Below are positions 5,000-23,270 of a stretch of DNA of 33,286 bases, in pieces (within the stretch, counting starts at the first letter, position 1; the number at the start of each line of letters is the position of its first letter). The position numbers were made by a program, and so were the translations under genes. The stretch lies in IMG/VR virus record IMGVR_UViG_3300033141_006319, positions 1 through 33,286 of that record. One strand, written 5' to 3'. This DNA comes from a virus. Under the pieces are notes generated by a model. It saw nothing but the letters and a program-made list of their open reading frames with translations, was not told where the DNA came from and did no database searches.

Positions 5000-5415
5000 G
5001 GATCACCCTGCCGTGGCCACCGAGCATCAATCACTACTGGCGATCGATCCCAATCAATCGCACCGCGTGCGCCCGGTGCGGCTCGCGCGTCGTGCTGAGC
5101 AAGGCAGGTCGAGCGTACCGCGAAGAGGTGCGCGCGACATGGCTTTCAGAAGAACCCTCGGACTGGCGCGGCGCACTCGACGGCCGGTTGCACGTCAAGG
5201 TCATCCTGCATCCTCCGACGCGCCGGAAGCTTGACATCGACAACCGAATCAAGGCCTTGCTCGATGCGCTGCAGCACGCGGATGTCTTTGTCGACGACGA
5301 GCAGATTGACCACCTTGAGATCGAGCGCTGGGAAGTGTTCCCGCGCGGCGCTGCCGTCGTCGAGATCAGAGAAATGCAGGCCCGTCCAGGAAGGAAGAAC
5401 AACCATGACCACTGA
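4987..5415 (+). CDS. rusA: RusA-like Holliday junction resolvase
   Basis: A 142-residue protein matching RusA endonucleases. The N-terminus LPWPPSINHYWR is the family hallmark. The acidic cluster KLDIDNRIKALLDAL (Asp83, Asp85, with the nearby Lys) and FVDDEQID (about 99-106) supply the metal-binding residues seen in RusA. A CxxC pair (CARCGS, about residue 28) is inserted after the first strand and occurs in many phage versions. The enzyme would cut four-way junctions made during recombination or replication and so leave linear or branch-free DNA for packaging. It starts with GTG 4987 inside the end of the DUF669 gene. The C-terminal PGRKNNHDH tail overlaps the next gene's start. Confidence 0.9.
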   Translation: MEALRITLPWPPSINHYWRSIPINRTACARCGSRVVLSKAGRAYREEVRATWLSEEPSDWRGALDGRLHVKVILHPPTRRKLDIDNRIKALLDALQHADVFVDDEQIDHLEIERWEVFPRGAAVVEIREMQARPGRKNNHDH

Positions 5416-6157
5416 ACAACTGCAACTGAAGGATCTGAAGATCGACGGCGGCACGCAGCCGCGTCAGGCGATCAGCGAACAGACGGTCGCCGAGTACGCC
5501 GAGGCGATCCGCGCTGGTGACACGTTCCCGCCCGTCGTCGTGTTCCATGACGGCGCAACGTACTGGCTGGTGGACGGCTTCCACCGATACCACGCGCATC
5601 GGCTGGTGGGCAGGGACACGATCGAAGCCACCGTGCATCAGGGCACGTTGCGCGATGCGATTCTGCACTCACTGACCGCGAACGTTGACCACGGCCTGCG
5701 CCGGACCAACGCCGACAAGCGCAAGGCCGTGTTGACCATGCTCACGAACGAGCTGGTGGCGACGGACGGGGACGGGAATCCGTGGTCGGACAACGAGATT
5801 GCCCGGCGCTGCGCGGTCAGCCATGGCGTAGTGACGCGGGTCCGTTCCTCACTTTCACAAAACGAAAGTGACCGCCCCGCGCGAGGTCGGTCGTTCACGA
5901 CCAAGCACGGTACGAGAGCGGTCATGAAGACCGGCAACATCGGCCGCAGCCGGTCGCGGCGACGCAAGCCGGGCGGCCTGGCAAAGAACGCCATGAAGCC
6001 GGTCCGCGGCCACTCGACGCCCAAACGAAAGACGGCGCTGGAACTGCCGCACGATCCGCATTGGGCGGCGCGCGGTCTCCTCAGCGCCCTCGGGCCGGAC
6101 TTCGTTCGCGCCCTCATCACCGAACTCACCAACTGCCTGGAAGGACACCGCGCATGA
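5405..6157 (+). CDS. ParB-like nuclease-domain protein with HTH
   Basis: A 250-residue protein. Residues 1-90 form a ParB/Srx fold: GGTQPRQAISEQTVAEYAEAI, then FPPVVVFHDGATYWLVDGFHRYHAH, where DGFHR equals the GxxR-type box of ParB. A helix-turn-helix follows (NEIARRCAVSHGVVTRVRSSL, about 135-155), then an Arg/Lys-rich linker. ParB-fold proteins bind DNA and CTP or cut DNA; in phages they are often regulators. The long frame open from 5231 is antecedent shadow of the resolvase gene; ATG 5405 has AGGAAGGAAG before it. Coupled to the next gene by ATGA. A perfect 8-bp inverted repeat lies inside the gene at 5849-5871. Confidence 0.82.
   Translation: MTTEQLQLKDLKIDGGTQPRQAISEQTVAEYAEAIRAGDTFPPVVVFHDGATYWLVDGFHRYHAHRLVGRDTIEATVHQGTLRDAILHSLTANVDHGLRRTNADKRKAVLTMLTNELVATDGDGNPWSDNEIARRCAVSHGVVTRVRSSLSQNESDRPARGRSFTTKHGTRAVMKTGNIGRSRSRRRKPGGLAKNAMKPVRGHSTPKRKTALELPHDPHWAARGLLSALGPDFVRALITELTNCLEGHRA
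5849..5871. promoter_or_regulatory. Inverted repeat TCACTTTC/GAAAGTGA inside the ParB-like gene
   Basis: Two perfect 8-bp arms flank a 7-nt spacer, ACAAAAC, in an AT-rich island within GC-rich coding DNA, just after the HTH-coding part. Its shape suits a dimeric repressor site, perhaps for the encoded protein itself, or an internal hairpin. Only the repeat is seen. Confidence 0.45.
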
Positions 6158-8756: not shown

Positions 8757-11002
8757 TGTCGAACGACGCGCGCGAATCCATCCATCGCTTCCTGACGCTC
8801 CTCTTTGATCCCGAAGACGTGCTCGAGGTGCGCGCCCCCAAGGCCAGGCAGCGACCGAACGCCTCGTACACGAGCACCGTCTCGGGCTACTTCACCGGTG
8901 CGTCGATCGACCAGGCAGCGGATGAGATCACGCTGCTCGACGAGGCAGCGCTCGCGCCCGGAATCTACGTCACGCTCAATCCGGTCCGTGCGGATCTGCT
9001 CGCTCGTGCTGCCAATCGACTCACGCACCGCGCCTCTGTCACCACGACCGATACCGAGATCGTTCGCCGCCGGTGGCTGCTCGTCGATGTCGATCCGGTT
9101 CGACCCGCCGGCGTGAGCGCGACAGACGATGAGCTGGCTGCCGCGATCACGAGGGCCGCTGGCATCCGTGACTATCTGGCGTCCCTCGATTGGCCGGCGC
9201 CGATCGAAGTCGAGTCAGGCAACGGCGCGCACCTGCTCTATCACATCGACCTGCCGCGTGATGATGGCGGTCTTGTGCAGCGCGCACTCGTAGTGCTGGC
9301 GGACCAGTTCGATGACGACGAAGTCAGCGTCGATCGCTCTGTCTTCAACCCCGCTCGAATCGTGAAGATCGCCGGGACGACGGCGCGCAAGGGCGATGAT
9401 CTCCGGGATGTTGCGGGCGTGATTGATCGGCCGCACCGTCGATCGCGTGTCACCCGAGTGCCAGACACGATCGATGTCGTACCGACTGCACTGCTCGAGG
9501 CACTTGCCGCACCGACTCCGACACTGGCGCCGCGTCCATCGATCAGCATCGCAAAGGGCGAGCGCTTCCCGACAACGCCCGACGGCGTGCGTGCCTGGCT
9601 TGAAGCACGCGGCGTCGCGGTCAAGGGCCAGCGTCTCAACGGCACGAAGACGATGCTGCTGCTCGAGCGCTGCCCGGTCAACCCGGAGATCGTCTCCACG
9701 GGCAACTCCGACATCGCGGTGCTCGTCGGTGATGACGGCAAGCTCGCCTACTGCAACAAGCACAACCGAGGCCAGGACTTCACCTGGCACGATCTGCGGC
9801 GCGCAATTGACCCCGACTACGACGGCCCCGCCCACCGGACCCCCGGAAGCACCCCCGGAAGTACGAACGACCTCGGCGGCGTCGATCTCTCGCAGTTCAT
9901 GGTCGGCCCGGTGCGCGAGGGTTGTGTCAGTTCTGTCAGTGTCAGCCAGCCGGGTGACGCATGCCTGCCCGACCTGCGAAGCGTCAAGCAGCTGACGAGC
10001 GAATACCCAAGGCTGCGACCGCCTGTCATCCACGGCCTGCTGCGCGAAGGCGAGACAATGAACGTGATCGCCTCGCCGAAAACCGGGAAGAGCTGGCTTG
10101 TGCTCGACCTCGCGATCGCTGTCGCCACCGGACGCCCATGGCTCGGCATCTACACGACGGTGCCGGGCGAAGTCCTGATCATCGACAACGAACTGCACCG
10201 CGAGACGTCGGCGCACCGCATCCCGCGCGTCGCCGAAGCCCGCGGCGTGCGCTTGAGCGCCATCGACGAGGTGATCCACATCGAGAATCTCCGTGGCCGG
10301 CTGCAGGACATCCACAAGCTCGGACCGTACTTCGAAGCGCTGGAGCCCGGCCGATTCAAACTCATCGTGCTCGACGCGTTCTACCGCTTCATGCCGCAAG
10401 GCGGTGACGAGAACGACAACGCCACGATGGCGAACATCTACAACCGGATCGATTCGTTCGCCGATCGCCTGCGCTGCTGCTTCGTCCTCATCCACCACTC
10501 GACGAAGGGAAGCCAGTCATCCAAGGCGGTGACAGATGTCGGGGCCGGAGCAGGCAGCCAGAGCCGGGCGACCGACACCCATCTCGTCCTTCGTCCCCAC
10601 GAGGAGGACGGTGTCGTCGTGCTGGACGCTGCCGTGCGGTCGTGGCCGCCGATCGAGCCAGTATGCCTCCGTTGGGATTTCCCGGTCTGGCACCCCGCGC
10701 CCGAACTCGATCCGGCCGACCTGCGGAACGAGCGATCGAAGAAGAAGCGGAAGGACGAGCCCGAGCAACCCGTGGAACCGCCGTGGGATGTGCTGCGGTT
10801 TGTCATGACGTTCATCACCGTCGAGCCCCGAACGAGGGGCGAGATCCGTGCGGCTGCGAAGGCGGAAGCAGGTCTCTCAGTCCGTGCATGTGACGACCTT
10901 CTGGCAACGGCCGAAGCCAAGGGTCTGGTCCATCGCTGGGCGTTCAGTCGACGCCGACCGTTGATGTTCGCCACCCAACCCCAGCCGGAGGAGGAGTCAT
11001 GA
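8756..11002 (+). CDS. Primase-polymerase (AEP) fused to RepA-like AAA helicase
   Basis: A 748-residue two-part replication protein. The N-terminal half carries archaeo-eukaryotic primase motifs: LLVDVDPVR with Asp111 and Asp113, SGNGAHLLY with His159, and DRSVFNPARIVKIAGT, the third motif with its PAR...GT box. A Cys/His segment follows (CPVNPE, CNKHNRGQDFTWHDL, about 300-350). A linker then contains two ACCCCCGGAA copies read as TPGSTPGST. The C-terminal half is a RepA/DnaB-like ATPase: Walker A ASPKTGKSW with Lys445, Walker B LIVLDAFYRF with Asp540, and FVLIHHSTKG. The last part resembles a winged helix. Such fusions prime and unwind at their own origin. The repeat-rich block directly downstream may be that origin. 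Confidence 0.88.
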   Translation: MSNDARESIHRFLTLLFDPEDVLEVRAPKARQRPNASYTSTVSGYFTGASIDQAADEITLLDEAALAPGIYVTLNPVRADLLARAANRLTHRASVTTTDTEIVRRRWLLVDVDPVRPAGVSATDDELAAAITRAAGIRDYLASLDWPAPIEVESGNGAHLLYHIDLPRDDGGLVQRALVVLADQFDDDEVSVDRSVFNPARIVKIAGTTARKGDDLRDVAGVIDRPHRRSRVTRVPDTIDVVPTALLEALAAPTPTLAPRPSISIAKGERFPTTPDGVRAWLEARGVAVKGQRLNGTKTMLLLERCPVNPEIVSTGNSDIAVLVGDDGKLAYCNKHNRGQDFTWHDLRRAIDPDYDGPAHRTPGSTPGSTNDLGGVDLSQFMVGPVREGCVSSVSVSQPGDACLPDLRSVKQLTSEYPRLRPPVIHGLLREGETMNVIASPKTGKSWLVLDLAIAVATGRPWLGIYTTVPGEVLIIDNELHRETSAHRIPRVAEARGVRLSAIDEVIHIENLRGRLQDIHKLGPYFEALEPGRFKLIVLDAFYRFMPQGGDENDNATMANIYNRIDSFADRLRCCFVLIHHSTKGSQSSKAVTDVGAGAGSQSRATDTHLVLRPHEEDGVVVLDAAVRSWPPIEPVCLRWDFPVWHPAPELDPADLRNERSKKKRKDEPEQPVEPPWDVLRFVMTFITVEPRTRGEIRAAAKAEAGLSVRACDDLLATAEAKGLVHRWAFSRRRPLMFATQPQPEEES
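9839..9862 (+). repeat. Doubled dispersed motif inside the primase-helicase linker
   Basis: ACCCCCGGAA occurs at 9839-9848 and 9851-9860, twelve bases apart, and is translated as TPGS repeats between the primase and helicase domains. A shorter doubled copy lies at 23169-23190 before the tRNA, so the double form looks like one unit. Confidence 0.7.
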
Positions 11003-11026
11003 GCGTCCTACTGACCACAGGGAGCC

Positions 11027-11212
11027 GAGTCCGCGCGCGCAGTGTTCAGTCGCGCGCGTGGACTCAGAATCCGAGTTCGCGCGCGCGCCAAAACGGGCGC
11101 GCGCATGGACTCGAGTATGTTCGCGCGCGCACCCCCCATACCCCCCGCGTGTGCGTGAACGCACTCGCGGGGGTGAGTAAGCGCGCGCGCATTGACTCGC
11201 GCGCGCTTACTC
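11027..11212. repeat. Array of four hairpins made of CG tracts framed by GAGT/ACTC
   Basis: Four inverted repeats stand end to end. 11027-11065: GAGTCC and GGACTC around two alternating CG tracts. 11073-11112: GAGT/ACTC outside, GCGCGCGCC/GGCGCGCGC inside, spacer AAAACG. 11142-11173: CCCCCGCG/CGCGGGGG, one T-T mismatch, then GTGCG/CGCAC with loop TGAA. 11175-11212: perfect 15-bp GAGTAAGCGCGCGCG and complement, 8-nt spacer. The GAGT-then-CG-tract unit also occurs at 11113. The block begins 25 bases after the primase-helicase stop. Alternating CG tracts can form Z-DNA or cruciforms. Together with the repeats at 11290-11430 this suggests a replication origin or partition-type site; terminator or regulatory roles are possible. 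Confidence 0.8.
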
Positions 11213-11289
11213 GGGGAGGGTCGCGCAGGATCTGCCGATTCGGTGGTGGCGATGGGTCCTCCCCGGCGAGGGAACGCACGAGAGGCCCG

Positions 11290-11321
11290 CGGGAACAGCA
11301 GCCAACGGGAACAGCAGCCAA
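11290..11321. repeat. 16-bp tandem repeat
   Basis: CGGGAACAGCAGCCAA occurs twice with no gap, both copies identical. It lies between the hairpin array and the TGTCCA repeats in a stretch with no convincing gene. Confidence 0.85.
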
Positions 11322-11386
11322 GGGAGACAGACTTTCTTTCGGCTGTCCGGTCCGGTTTCGCGGCTCGCCGGGGCCATACCACATCA

Positions 11387-11430
11387 CTGTCCATTCGCTG
11401 TCCAACCTGCGTCCATTCTCTGTCCAATTT
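11387..11430. repeat. Iteron-like TGTCCA repeats
   Basis: Four adjacent 10- to 12-base units share (C)TGTCCA or CGTCCA: 11387-11397, 11398-11409, 11410-11419 and 11420-11430. A related CTGTCC lies at 11343. Spacing near one helical turn puts all copies on one DNA face, as in initiator-binding iterons. From here to 11587 nothing else is recognised apart from the start of the convergent gene region. Confidence 0.65.
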
Positions 11431-11587
11431 CAAGCTCAACCCACGGGCCGCGACGTTCGCCCGTGTCGCGGCCGGCCCCGGCTTGGCCACCGCTCCCAAC
11501 GCCCGAAACCTCGGCCACACGGGCCAACGTCGCCCAATGGAGGCAAAATGTGCGTATCGGCAGCGTGGACGCGGTGGAACGGGGCGA

Positions 11588-12205
11588 CTACGTCGCCATG
11601 CGCTCCGGCATGCCAACAAACCGGTCGTGGTCCTCGAATGTGAACTCGACGGACGGTTCGTCGTCGTCCCGGTACTCGTAGTGGATCTGTTCATGAAACG
11701 TGCCAACGGGTGCTGGCTGCGACATCAGTGCTCGCGCGATTGCACCCTCAACCAATCTTCGAGTCCGGCGCTCAACGTCGGTTGGGATGAGCCACAGACG
11801 GATAGCTTGGACATTGGCCATGAGTTCGGGGATGAGCTCCGCATGGCGAGCGAGGAATTCTTCGGCTCGGCAGGCTTCGTTCCATCGGAGCATCCCCTCC
11901 CAAATCCGCACGAGACGTCCGGATGCGAAACTCACTCCGTCATAGATGCTGTACGTTCCGTTCAGGTAGAGAAACAGATGCTCCCTGAGGCGCTCGCGGA
12001 ACTCGCGGCCCGTCTCGCCGACGTAGTGCACCAGCTCCTTGCCGTCGGATTCGACGGTGAACAGGTAAATGCCACTCTGCTTCGCTTCTTCGGCCTCGAG
12101 CACATAAGGGGTTCGGCCGTTGGCGAGAAATCCGAACGGTCCGCTTGCCCGCAGACACAACGCGGCACCGGTGGCCGGCACACTCGAGTGATTCGCATCC
12201 GTCAT
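11588..12205 (-). CDS. GIY-YIG nuclease-domain protein
   Basis: A 205-residue protein on the minus strand, alone against the rightward early genes. The GIY-YIG core is clear: SGIYLFTV with GIY at 45-47, HYVGETG at 60-66, and the helix REFRERLREH with the catalytic-type Arg (about 68-76). A Glu in RIWEGM and an Asn-containing segment lie downstream, as expected for the metal site. The C-terminal half (about 100-205) is not recognised; its end is acidic with FTFEDHD. GIY-YIG domains occur in homing endonucleases, restriction enzymes and UvrC-like repair proteins. Position beside a methyltransferase and a repeat block allows a homing or restriction-like role. Start ATG 12205 lacks a strong ribosome-binding site. 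Confidence 0.8.
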   Translation of the reverse strand: MTDANHSSVPATGAALCLRASGPFGFLANGRTPYVLEAEEAKQSGIYLFTVESDGKELVHYVGETGREFRERLREHLFLYLNGTYSIYDGVSFASGRLVRIWEGMLRWNEACRAEEFLARHAELIPELMANVQAIRLWLIPTDVERRTRRLVEGAIARALMSQPAPVGTFHEQIHYEYRDDDEPSVEFTFEDHDRFVGMPERMAT

Positions 12206-23197: not shown

Positions 23198-23270
23198 CGC
23201 GGGCGGCAGGGCCTGGTGGTCCGGTTGGGCTCATATCCCAGCGTTGAGGGTTCGATTCCCTCGCCCGCAA
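23198..23270 (+). tRNA. Phage tRNA with CAT anticodon, initiator (fMet)-like
   Basis: A cloverleaf of 73 bases: acceptor CGCGGGC against GCCCGCA, anticodon stem TTGGG/CCCAG around CTCATAT with CAT at 23232-23234, T-arm GAGGG-TTCGATT-CCCTC, discriminator A23270, no CCA. Two initiator marks are present: the first base pair is C-A mismatched, and the anticodon stem has three G-C pairs stacked next to the loop. The D-arm region follows the fMet pattern (CCTGGT) with A11 opposite C24, which does not pair. Position 8 is G instead of U, and the variable loop is four bases. So it is probably a diverged initiator tRNA; an elongator Met or Ile2 tRNA is the alternative. Confidence 0.8.

Follow-up and report, generated by a model that had tools for sequence, protein, structure and literature searches.

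A candidate replication origin with phage-specific repeated words beside a RepA-like primase-helicase gene in a virus of planctomycete bacteria

A 186-bp array of short repeated units (positions 11027-11212) was found in an IMG/VR virus record of 33,286 bases; this whole stretch is called the window herein. Sequence comparison indicates that the array is most likely the site at which DNA replication begins in this virus, whose hosts are planctomycete bacteria. It is highly probable that the array is a replication origin, in which iterons of GAGT and a CG tract would be bound by the C-terminal winged helix-turn-helix (wHTH) of the helicase encoded just upstream, the core would be opened, and priming would occur at a hairpin. 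The conserved position, the architecture that is kept while the repeated word changes, and the agreement of the word with the recognition helix in relatives with two HTHs are shown by computation. We infer from these data that GAGT is bound by the wHTH of the window protein itself, that opening and priming at the hairpin follow from this binding, and that the array is the start point of replication.

The array and its gene in the window

The replication genes of the window lie on the + strand in the order integrase, PD-(D/E)XK protein, AAA_24, DUF669, RusA, ParB-like protein, SF2 helicase and AAA_25 protein. A tRNA-Arg (819-893) is followed by a tyrosine integrase (1008-2189), a region that is a probable prophage attachment site. 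A tRNA-Met (CAT) was also detected by ARAGORN at 23199-23269 inside the structural genes, with no Rfam match at the gathering score. The array stands directly 3' of the AEP/RepA-like primase-helicase gene (Table 1). The RepA-like RecA-fold helicase domain (AAA_25) covers residues 417-586 of this protein; its top four Foldseek matches are RSF1010 RepA structures, and a profile search gave RepA 1g8y at E 2.4e-11. The N-terminus is weakly like pRN1 ORF904 (E 0.015) and is presumably AEP-like. Pfam gave no match for this part of the window protein; the N-terminus is Prim-Pol in many relatives (for example L012, L066 and L085), and RepB_primase was scored at 0.16 in L018. The C-terminal wHTH, at residues about 679-739, was modelled at pLDDT 83. 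The model is closest to winged helices of the Fur/PerR/BlaI type with high probability, but with no match at E<=0.001. From the model and the sequence comparisons, this domain is proposed as the reader of the array. Some relatives carry a second HTH at the extreme C-terminus (HTH_23 8.6e-8 in L018), which the window protein does not have.

Table 1 Coordinates of the primase-helicase gene, the array units, the core and the neighbouring block in the window.
Feature	Position	Strand	Remark
Primase-helicase gene, 748 aa	8756-11002	+	Pfam AAA_25 5.5e-31
DNA of C-terminal wHTH (recognition helix residues 709-721, wing 726-739)	10790-10972	+	Model
Iteron 1, GAGTCCGCGCGCGC	11027-11040	+	GAGT pattern
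Iteron 2, inverted	11051-11065	-	GAGT pattern
Iteron 3	11073-11088	+	GAGT pattern
Iteron 4, inverted	11097-11112	-	GAGT pattern
Iteron 5, adjoins core	11113-11130	+	GAGT pattern
Conserved core GCGCGCA-CCCCCC-ATA-CCCCCC	11124-11146	+	Kept in relatives
Core hairpin, GC arms, 13 pairs, loop TGAA	11142-11173	+	Same place in 54 core-bearing loci
Iteron 6	11175-11190	+	GAGT pattern
Iteron 7, inverted	11181-11198	-	GAGT pattern; CG tract common to iterons 6 and 7
Iteron 8, inverted	11198-11212	-	GAGT pattern
Conserved block GGTCCTCC...CGGGAAC	11255-11296	+	Similar block after helicase in relatives

The unit GAGT-N(2-5)-(CG)n is present in eight copies, four in each orientation. The units pair to form hairpins at 11027-11065, 11072-11113 and 11175-11212 (perfect 15-bp arms). 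They flank the core and its GC hairpin, which sit between iterons 5 and 6. Within the core, the sequence CCCCCCATACCCCCC at 11132-11146 runs into the hairpin; it was overlooked by the first-pass annotation and is present in none of the window shuffles.

The first-pass annotation had described four consecutive hairpins made of GAGT and CG units in both orientations, right after the primase-helicase gene. The coordinates and the fold and repeat statistics confirm this description. The DNA fold of 11020-11220 is 7.6 SD more stable than its own shuffles, and its level was reached by 0 of 200. Over the first 300 nt past the helicase stop, repeated 8-mers form 71 pairs vs a maximum of 20 in 300 shuffles, and this level was matched by none of 216 windows of the same size elsewhere in the record. 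Taken alone, the loose pattern GAGT-N1-5-(CG/GC)3 is no rarity in such a GC-rich record (10 matches vs a mean of 5 and a maximum of 10 in 60 shuffles). The rare part is the clustering, with 8 of these 10 matches lying within 186 bp. Three open reading frames overlap the array, and their tblastn matches in relatives come mostly from parts outside it, in agreement with the earlier remark that the array is not coding noise. For the frame at 10999-11643, the array part is residues 10-71, and matches in relatives were found for residues 98 and above only.

Conservation after the helicase gene in relatives

Relatives were collected with the helicase as query, which gave 30 viral loci (from 33 pattern-matching stretches) and 44 genome loci (from 135), mostly from Planctomycetota. 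Further scans gave 80 kept of 173, 80 kept of 210 (mostly the same contigs) and 20 of 21, and a one-phylum scan found a helicase match in 22 of 392 genomes. For the statistics, 113 distinct loci chosen by helicase homology only were used; loci from pattern scans, loci with less than 300 nt after the stop and near-duplicates were left out. Repeats around the helicase stop exceeded all 100 shuffles in 92 of the 113 loci, and the stop region was the best repeat window of its own locus in 85. The first-pass annotation had suggested searching relatives for the array beside the helicase gene, with its absence as the refuting outcome; repeats and/or the core were found after the helicase stop in 105 of the 113 loci. 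Neither was found in the remaining 8 (L010, L021, L038, L064, L126, L160, L305 and L306).

The C-run core was found in 59 of the 113 loci at <=330 nt from the stop, 7 of them on the other strand, with only 6 further occurrences in 1.13 Mb of these loci outside that interval. Its orientation is inverted relative to the helicase gene in L054, L057, L058 and L297. The core hairpin beats all 100 shuffles in stability at 40 of the 54 core loci, and 38 different inner arms were observed. This indicates that the sequence of the hairpin is free while its structure is kept, whereas the array writes one word many times.

Conversely, a blind scan of viral contigs for GCGC-N(0-3)-CCCCCCATACCCCCC returned 27 stretches. 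In 20 of them, the core is preceded at a distance of 36-169 nt by a helicase of this family that points the same way; L083 and L085, whose helicases are only 29% identical to the query, are among these. A helicase relative was absent from the examined stretches of the other seven (L079, L081, L084, L086, L087, L090 and L100), and some of these matches are probably due to chance. Among them, L079 (core 6007-6027, -) and L090 (core 5039-5059, +) carry repeated GCGTAACG words inside an open frame, where the core may mark another initiator family using the same core. Repeated AACAGGTGCC words stand ahead of the core of L087 (11735-11754, -).

Read on the - strand, TAT-GGGGGG-TG comes after the core hairpin and places a GTG 3' of the hairpin stem. 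GTG is the reported or expected start motif of such primases and has this position in the ssi hairpins of RSF1010. The CA that gives GTG on the opposite strand is present beside only 34 of 52 cores, and the motif is therefore taken as a lead only.

Seven named records were also examined for repeats after the primase-helicase gene, with 300 shuffles and control windows. The repeats of Enterococcus EFC-1, Faecalibacterium Lugh and Streptococcus Javan273 exceeded all 300 shuffles and all control windows. Those of Castelnaud exceeded the shuffles but were equalled by 1 of 39 control windows. No repeat signal was given by Mycobacterium Fang, Gordonia LittleMunchkin and the Shewanella plasmid in the same test. 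The gaps after the primase-helicase genes of EFC-1 (L314 4209-4453), FP_Lugh (L315 4224-4491) and Javan273 (L318 3754-4095) were observed as unannotated stretches of repeats plus hairpin.

Z-form DNA had been suggested for the CG tracts. As a mechanism it is not borne out, since relatives such as L066 and L067 keep words and hairpins without an alternating CG tract after the helicase gene.

Further elements were observed to the right of the array. A wider block at 11255-11350 reads GGTCCTCC...CGGGAACAGC...GACAGACTTTCTTTCGGCTGTCCGG, and resembles a cos site. In 60 of 114 loci, its conserved part is present no more than 600 nt beyond the helicase stop, vs 32 copies elsewhere in 1.17 Mb, and it is clearly associated with the array. 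A second repeated motif around TTGGCCCACGTGGC / CGTTGGCCCGTGTGGCG is seen downstream of the array in L077, L020, L030 and L167, and at about 11451-11530 in the window.

The repeated word and the recognition helix

The repeated word differs from phage to phage, and the architecture of core and hairpin stays. The word is GAGT in the window, TCGCTC in L033, CTCGAAG in L012, AACTAAC in L009, CGTTTTGTG in L020, CTGTGTG in L071, GCGGAAC in L018 and ATGAAAC in L017. Natural pairs illustrate the change of word. The helicases of L017 and L018 are near-identical (about 90% alike), the recognition helix and the whole left array differ, and the two loci match almost exactly once more from the core onward. 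To the right of its core, L018 has retained the other, old word, and for this reason the right-hand words may not be needed. The same pattern is given by L180 and L018, with MRYVQ/GCGAAC vs PRYVR/CGGAAC. L294 and L295, which belong to the class of the window, are identical through the recognition helix; wing and array then diverge together, the loci are similar again at the core, and they differ beyond the hairpin.

Alignment of the second HTH in the two-HTH relatives prompted a code between the recognition helix and a word of the form NNNAAC. The choice of NNNAAC was made after the data were seen, and the code was checked on new loci and by partial correlation. Among 25 two-HTH loci, R before the aromatic residue went with G at word position 3 in 17 of 17, and Q went with another base in 7 of 7. 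For the second position, Q two places after the aromatic residue went with C in 4 of 5. The sole exception is L016, where two words were observed in 9263-9600, AGTGCGC inside the end of the gene and CGGAAC farther along. The frozen rule was applied with the same script to 6 new loci from the 392 genomes and held for R with G in 3 of 3 and for Q with a base other than G in 3 of 3. L285 and L306, missed by the pattern of the script, have R and CGGAAC; L290 (ERHVRR) has CGGACA, exactly as L023 (ERHLRR). The pooled pairs are R-G 24 (24 of 24), Q-A 7 and Q-C 3 (A or C in 10 of 10), and S-G 1, which gives a Fisher value of 7.6e-9 for R/Q against the position-3 base, ignoring relatedness. This count omits L160 (word count <4) and L082 (a single-wHTH false match) and accepts CGGACA for the two H-type helices. 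For L307, the best AAC word was AAAAAC, which probably is a poly-A artefact of its TGTCAAC word; each of the two is scored as a base other than G.

The match of residue and word is not explained by inheritance. On the helicase-core tree, 11 changes of the residue and 10 of the base were counted, against 9.7 and 9.4 with shuffled labels, so that switches are no rarer than under shuffling. The tip of the gene and the array are neighbours and could travel together without any binding. Joint travel alone is disfavoured because identity of the recognition-helix octamer predicts word similarity with scaffold and helicase core held constant (partial r 0.387, reached in 0 of 1000 permutations; L082 and L160 left out). 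The HTH scaffold does not predict the word (0.092, 63 of 1000 permutations), and a weaker independent contribution comes from the helicase core (0.183, 2 of 1000).

A global Mantel-type test on 50 loci gave correlations of word similarity with the helicase body of 0.31 and with the wHTH of 0.25. It did not single out the wHTH, and finer tests were thus needed. In a sliding scan of 64 single-wHTH loci, the top partial correlations were found at the wing (724-735, 0.27) and the recognition-helix region (700-715, 0.245). Residues 428-447 near Walker A come close at 0.23, and the scan is for this reason taken as supporting only. The clean code is seen for the second HTH, absent from the window protein; for the single-wHTH class, the link suggested by the scan is weak.

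Proposed function and comparison with known systems

The proposed steps are as follows. The repeated word, GAGT with its CG tract in the window, would be the iteron. The C-terminal wHTH of the primase-helicase would bind the iterons and gather the helicase there. The helicase would then assemble at the neighbouring C6-ATA-C6 core and open it, which would expose the core hairpin as a single strand, and the N-terminal primase domain of the same protein would start a primer at this hairpin. Binding of the repeats by the initiator is suggested by covariation, and the last steps are proposed by analogy with RSF1010 and pRN1. The first-pass annotation had named an origin among its suggestions. The position of the array after the helicase in most relatives, and the covariation of the word with the DNA-reading residues of the helicase, argue strongly for this suggestion. 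Nothing points to a replication terminus, which had been named beside it.

The covariation that speaks for binding does not itself say what the binding does. The wHTH might bind the array as an operator that represses or times the downstream genes, with replication starting elsewhere. We consider this improbable. A simple scan found no promoter-like site in 10900-11600, although organisms with other promoters are not covered by it; an arrangement of at least 8 sites about a stable core hairpin is origin-like; and in pRN1 the origin occupies the same position, immediately 3' of the primase-helicase gene.

The strong folding of the array, with a hairpin that is kept while its arms change, would also suit a structured RNA or a terminator acting in the transcript of the replication operon. 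The tRNA was the sole Rfam match in the whole window, however, and the same simple scan found no terminator-like site. Many word copies in both orientations that follow a DNA-binding helix are not required by RNA pairing, and the core is inverted relative to the gene in the four loci named above. An RNA role is quite unlikely.

A packaging or cos site, or part of one, is a slighter prospect again. The cos-like block is the ground for it, but it is missing near the gene in 54 of the 114 loci, there are arrays that have no such block, and the word tracks the helicase and not a terminase. The least credible reading is the partition array bound by a ParB-fold protein of the phage, which had been raised from the ParB-like genes that the window carries. 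The ParB-methyltransferase protein has a homolog in 17 of 26 long loci, yet the protein of 5231-6157 has a homolog in 0 of the 26 loci of >=15 kb, and 7 of the 26 have array or core with no homolog of either ParB-like protein in about 8 kb on each side, so that presence of the array does not track these proteins.

An origin beside its initiator gene is known from other systems; as far as we found, this element and the matching of residue to word are new. No description of the array or of the code was recognised in the open-licence literature, nor was the literal core sequence found in its papers, and a search of the array DNA against named phages gave no match. Streptococcus thermophilus phages such as Sfi21 and 7201 have a repeat-rich non-coding origin after the primase gene, as here, with a helicase of a different family. 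To our knowledge, no matching of word to helix is known for these origins.

The origin oriV of RSF1010 (IncQ), with RepA, RepB' and RepC, resembles the proposed origin in its RepA-fold hexameric helicase (Foldseek ranks 1-4) and, according to the excerpts of two papers (PMC4234260, PMC4434180), in iterons beside hairpins, an AEP-type primase and winged-helix recognition of the iterons, the last two being presumed features of the window protein. In RSF1010, three proteins share the work of binding the iterons, unwinding the DNA and priming next to small hairpins (PMC4234260, PMC4434180). RSF1010 has a separate iteron-binding RepC, whereas a single protein would combine helicase, primase-like part and DNA reader in the window; the units here are short, of mixed orientation and phage-specific, and one central hairpin stands in place of ssiA/ssiB. 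The pRN1 ORF904/stem-loop origin and phage BIP-1 resemble the proposed system in an AEP primase-helicase (the AEP part being presumed in the window) with a C-terminal winged helix and an origin directly downstream of the gene, with a stem-loop of kept structure and changing sequence, as described in the excerpt of PMC4234260. That excerpt gives pRN1 an SF3 helicase and no iterons, in contrast to the RecA/RepA-type (AAA_25) helicase and dense iteron array here (PMC4234260). The alpha/ori system of phage P4 joins primase, helicase and a repeat-binding C-terminal winged helix in one protein, as proposed for the window, but with a Toprim-type primase and another helicase family and repeats, in the same excerpt (PMC4234260). 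Pfam gave no Toprim match here, and relatives have Prim-Pol. The RepA_N of the PLE satellite is a phage-related initiator with matched iterons and, in the excerpt of that report, without helicase and primase (PMC7145576). An exchange of the wHTH in the replication initiator was reported for Gordonia phages, with no mention of the origin in the excerpt of that paper (PMC10684548).

The tip of the helicase and the array could together be an exchangeable specificity cassette, in which a few residues of the recognition helix or wing switch the word while the core hairpin stays fixed; we give this idea an even chance. Such switching would perhaps avoid cross-firing with related prophages or attack directed at the origin. 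If the cassette is true, rules from residue to base would let origin words be read from the protein sequence alone. With this proposal, a large set of uncultured planctomycete phages and of phages related to them would gain an origin, and in outline the element also seems to reach named phages of Enterococcus, Faecalibacterium and Streptococcus. The natural series of initiator-origin pairs would offer a readable and testable protein-DNA code, and it would illustrate how every copy of an origin word can be altered with the core left in place.
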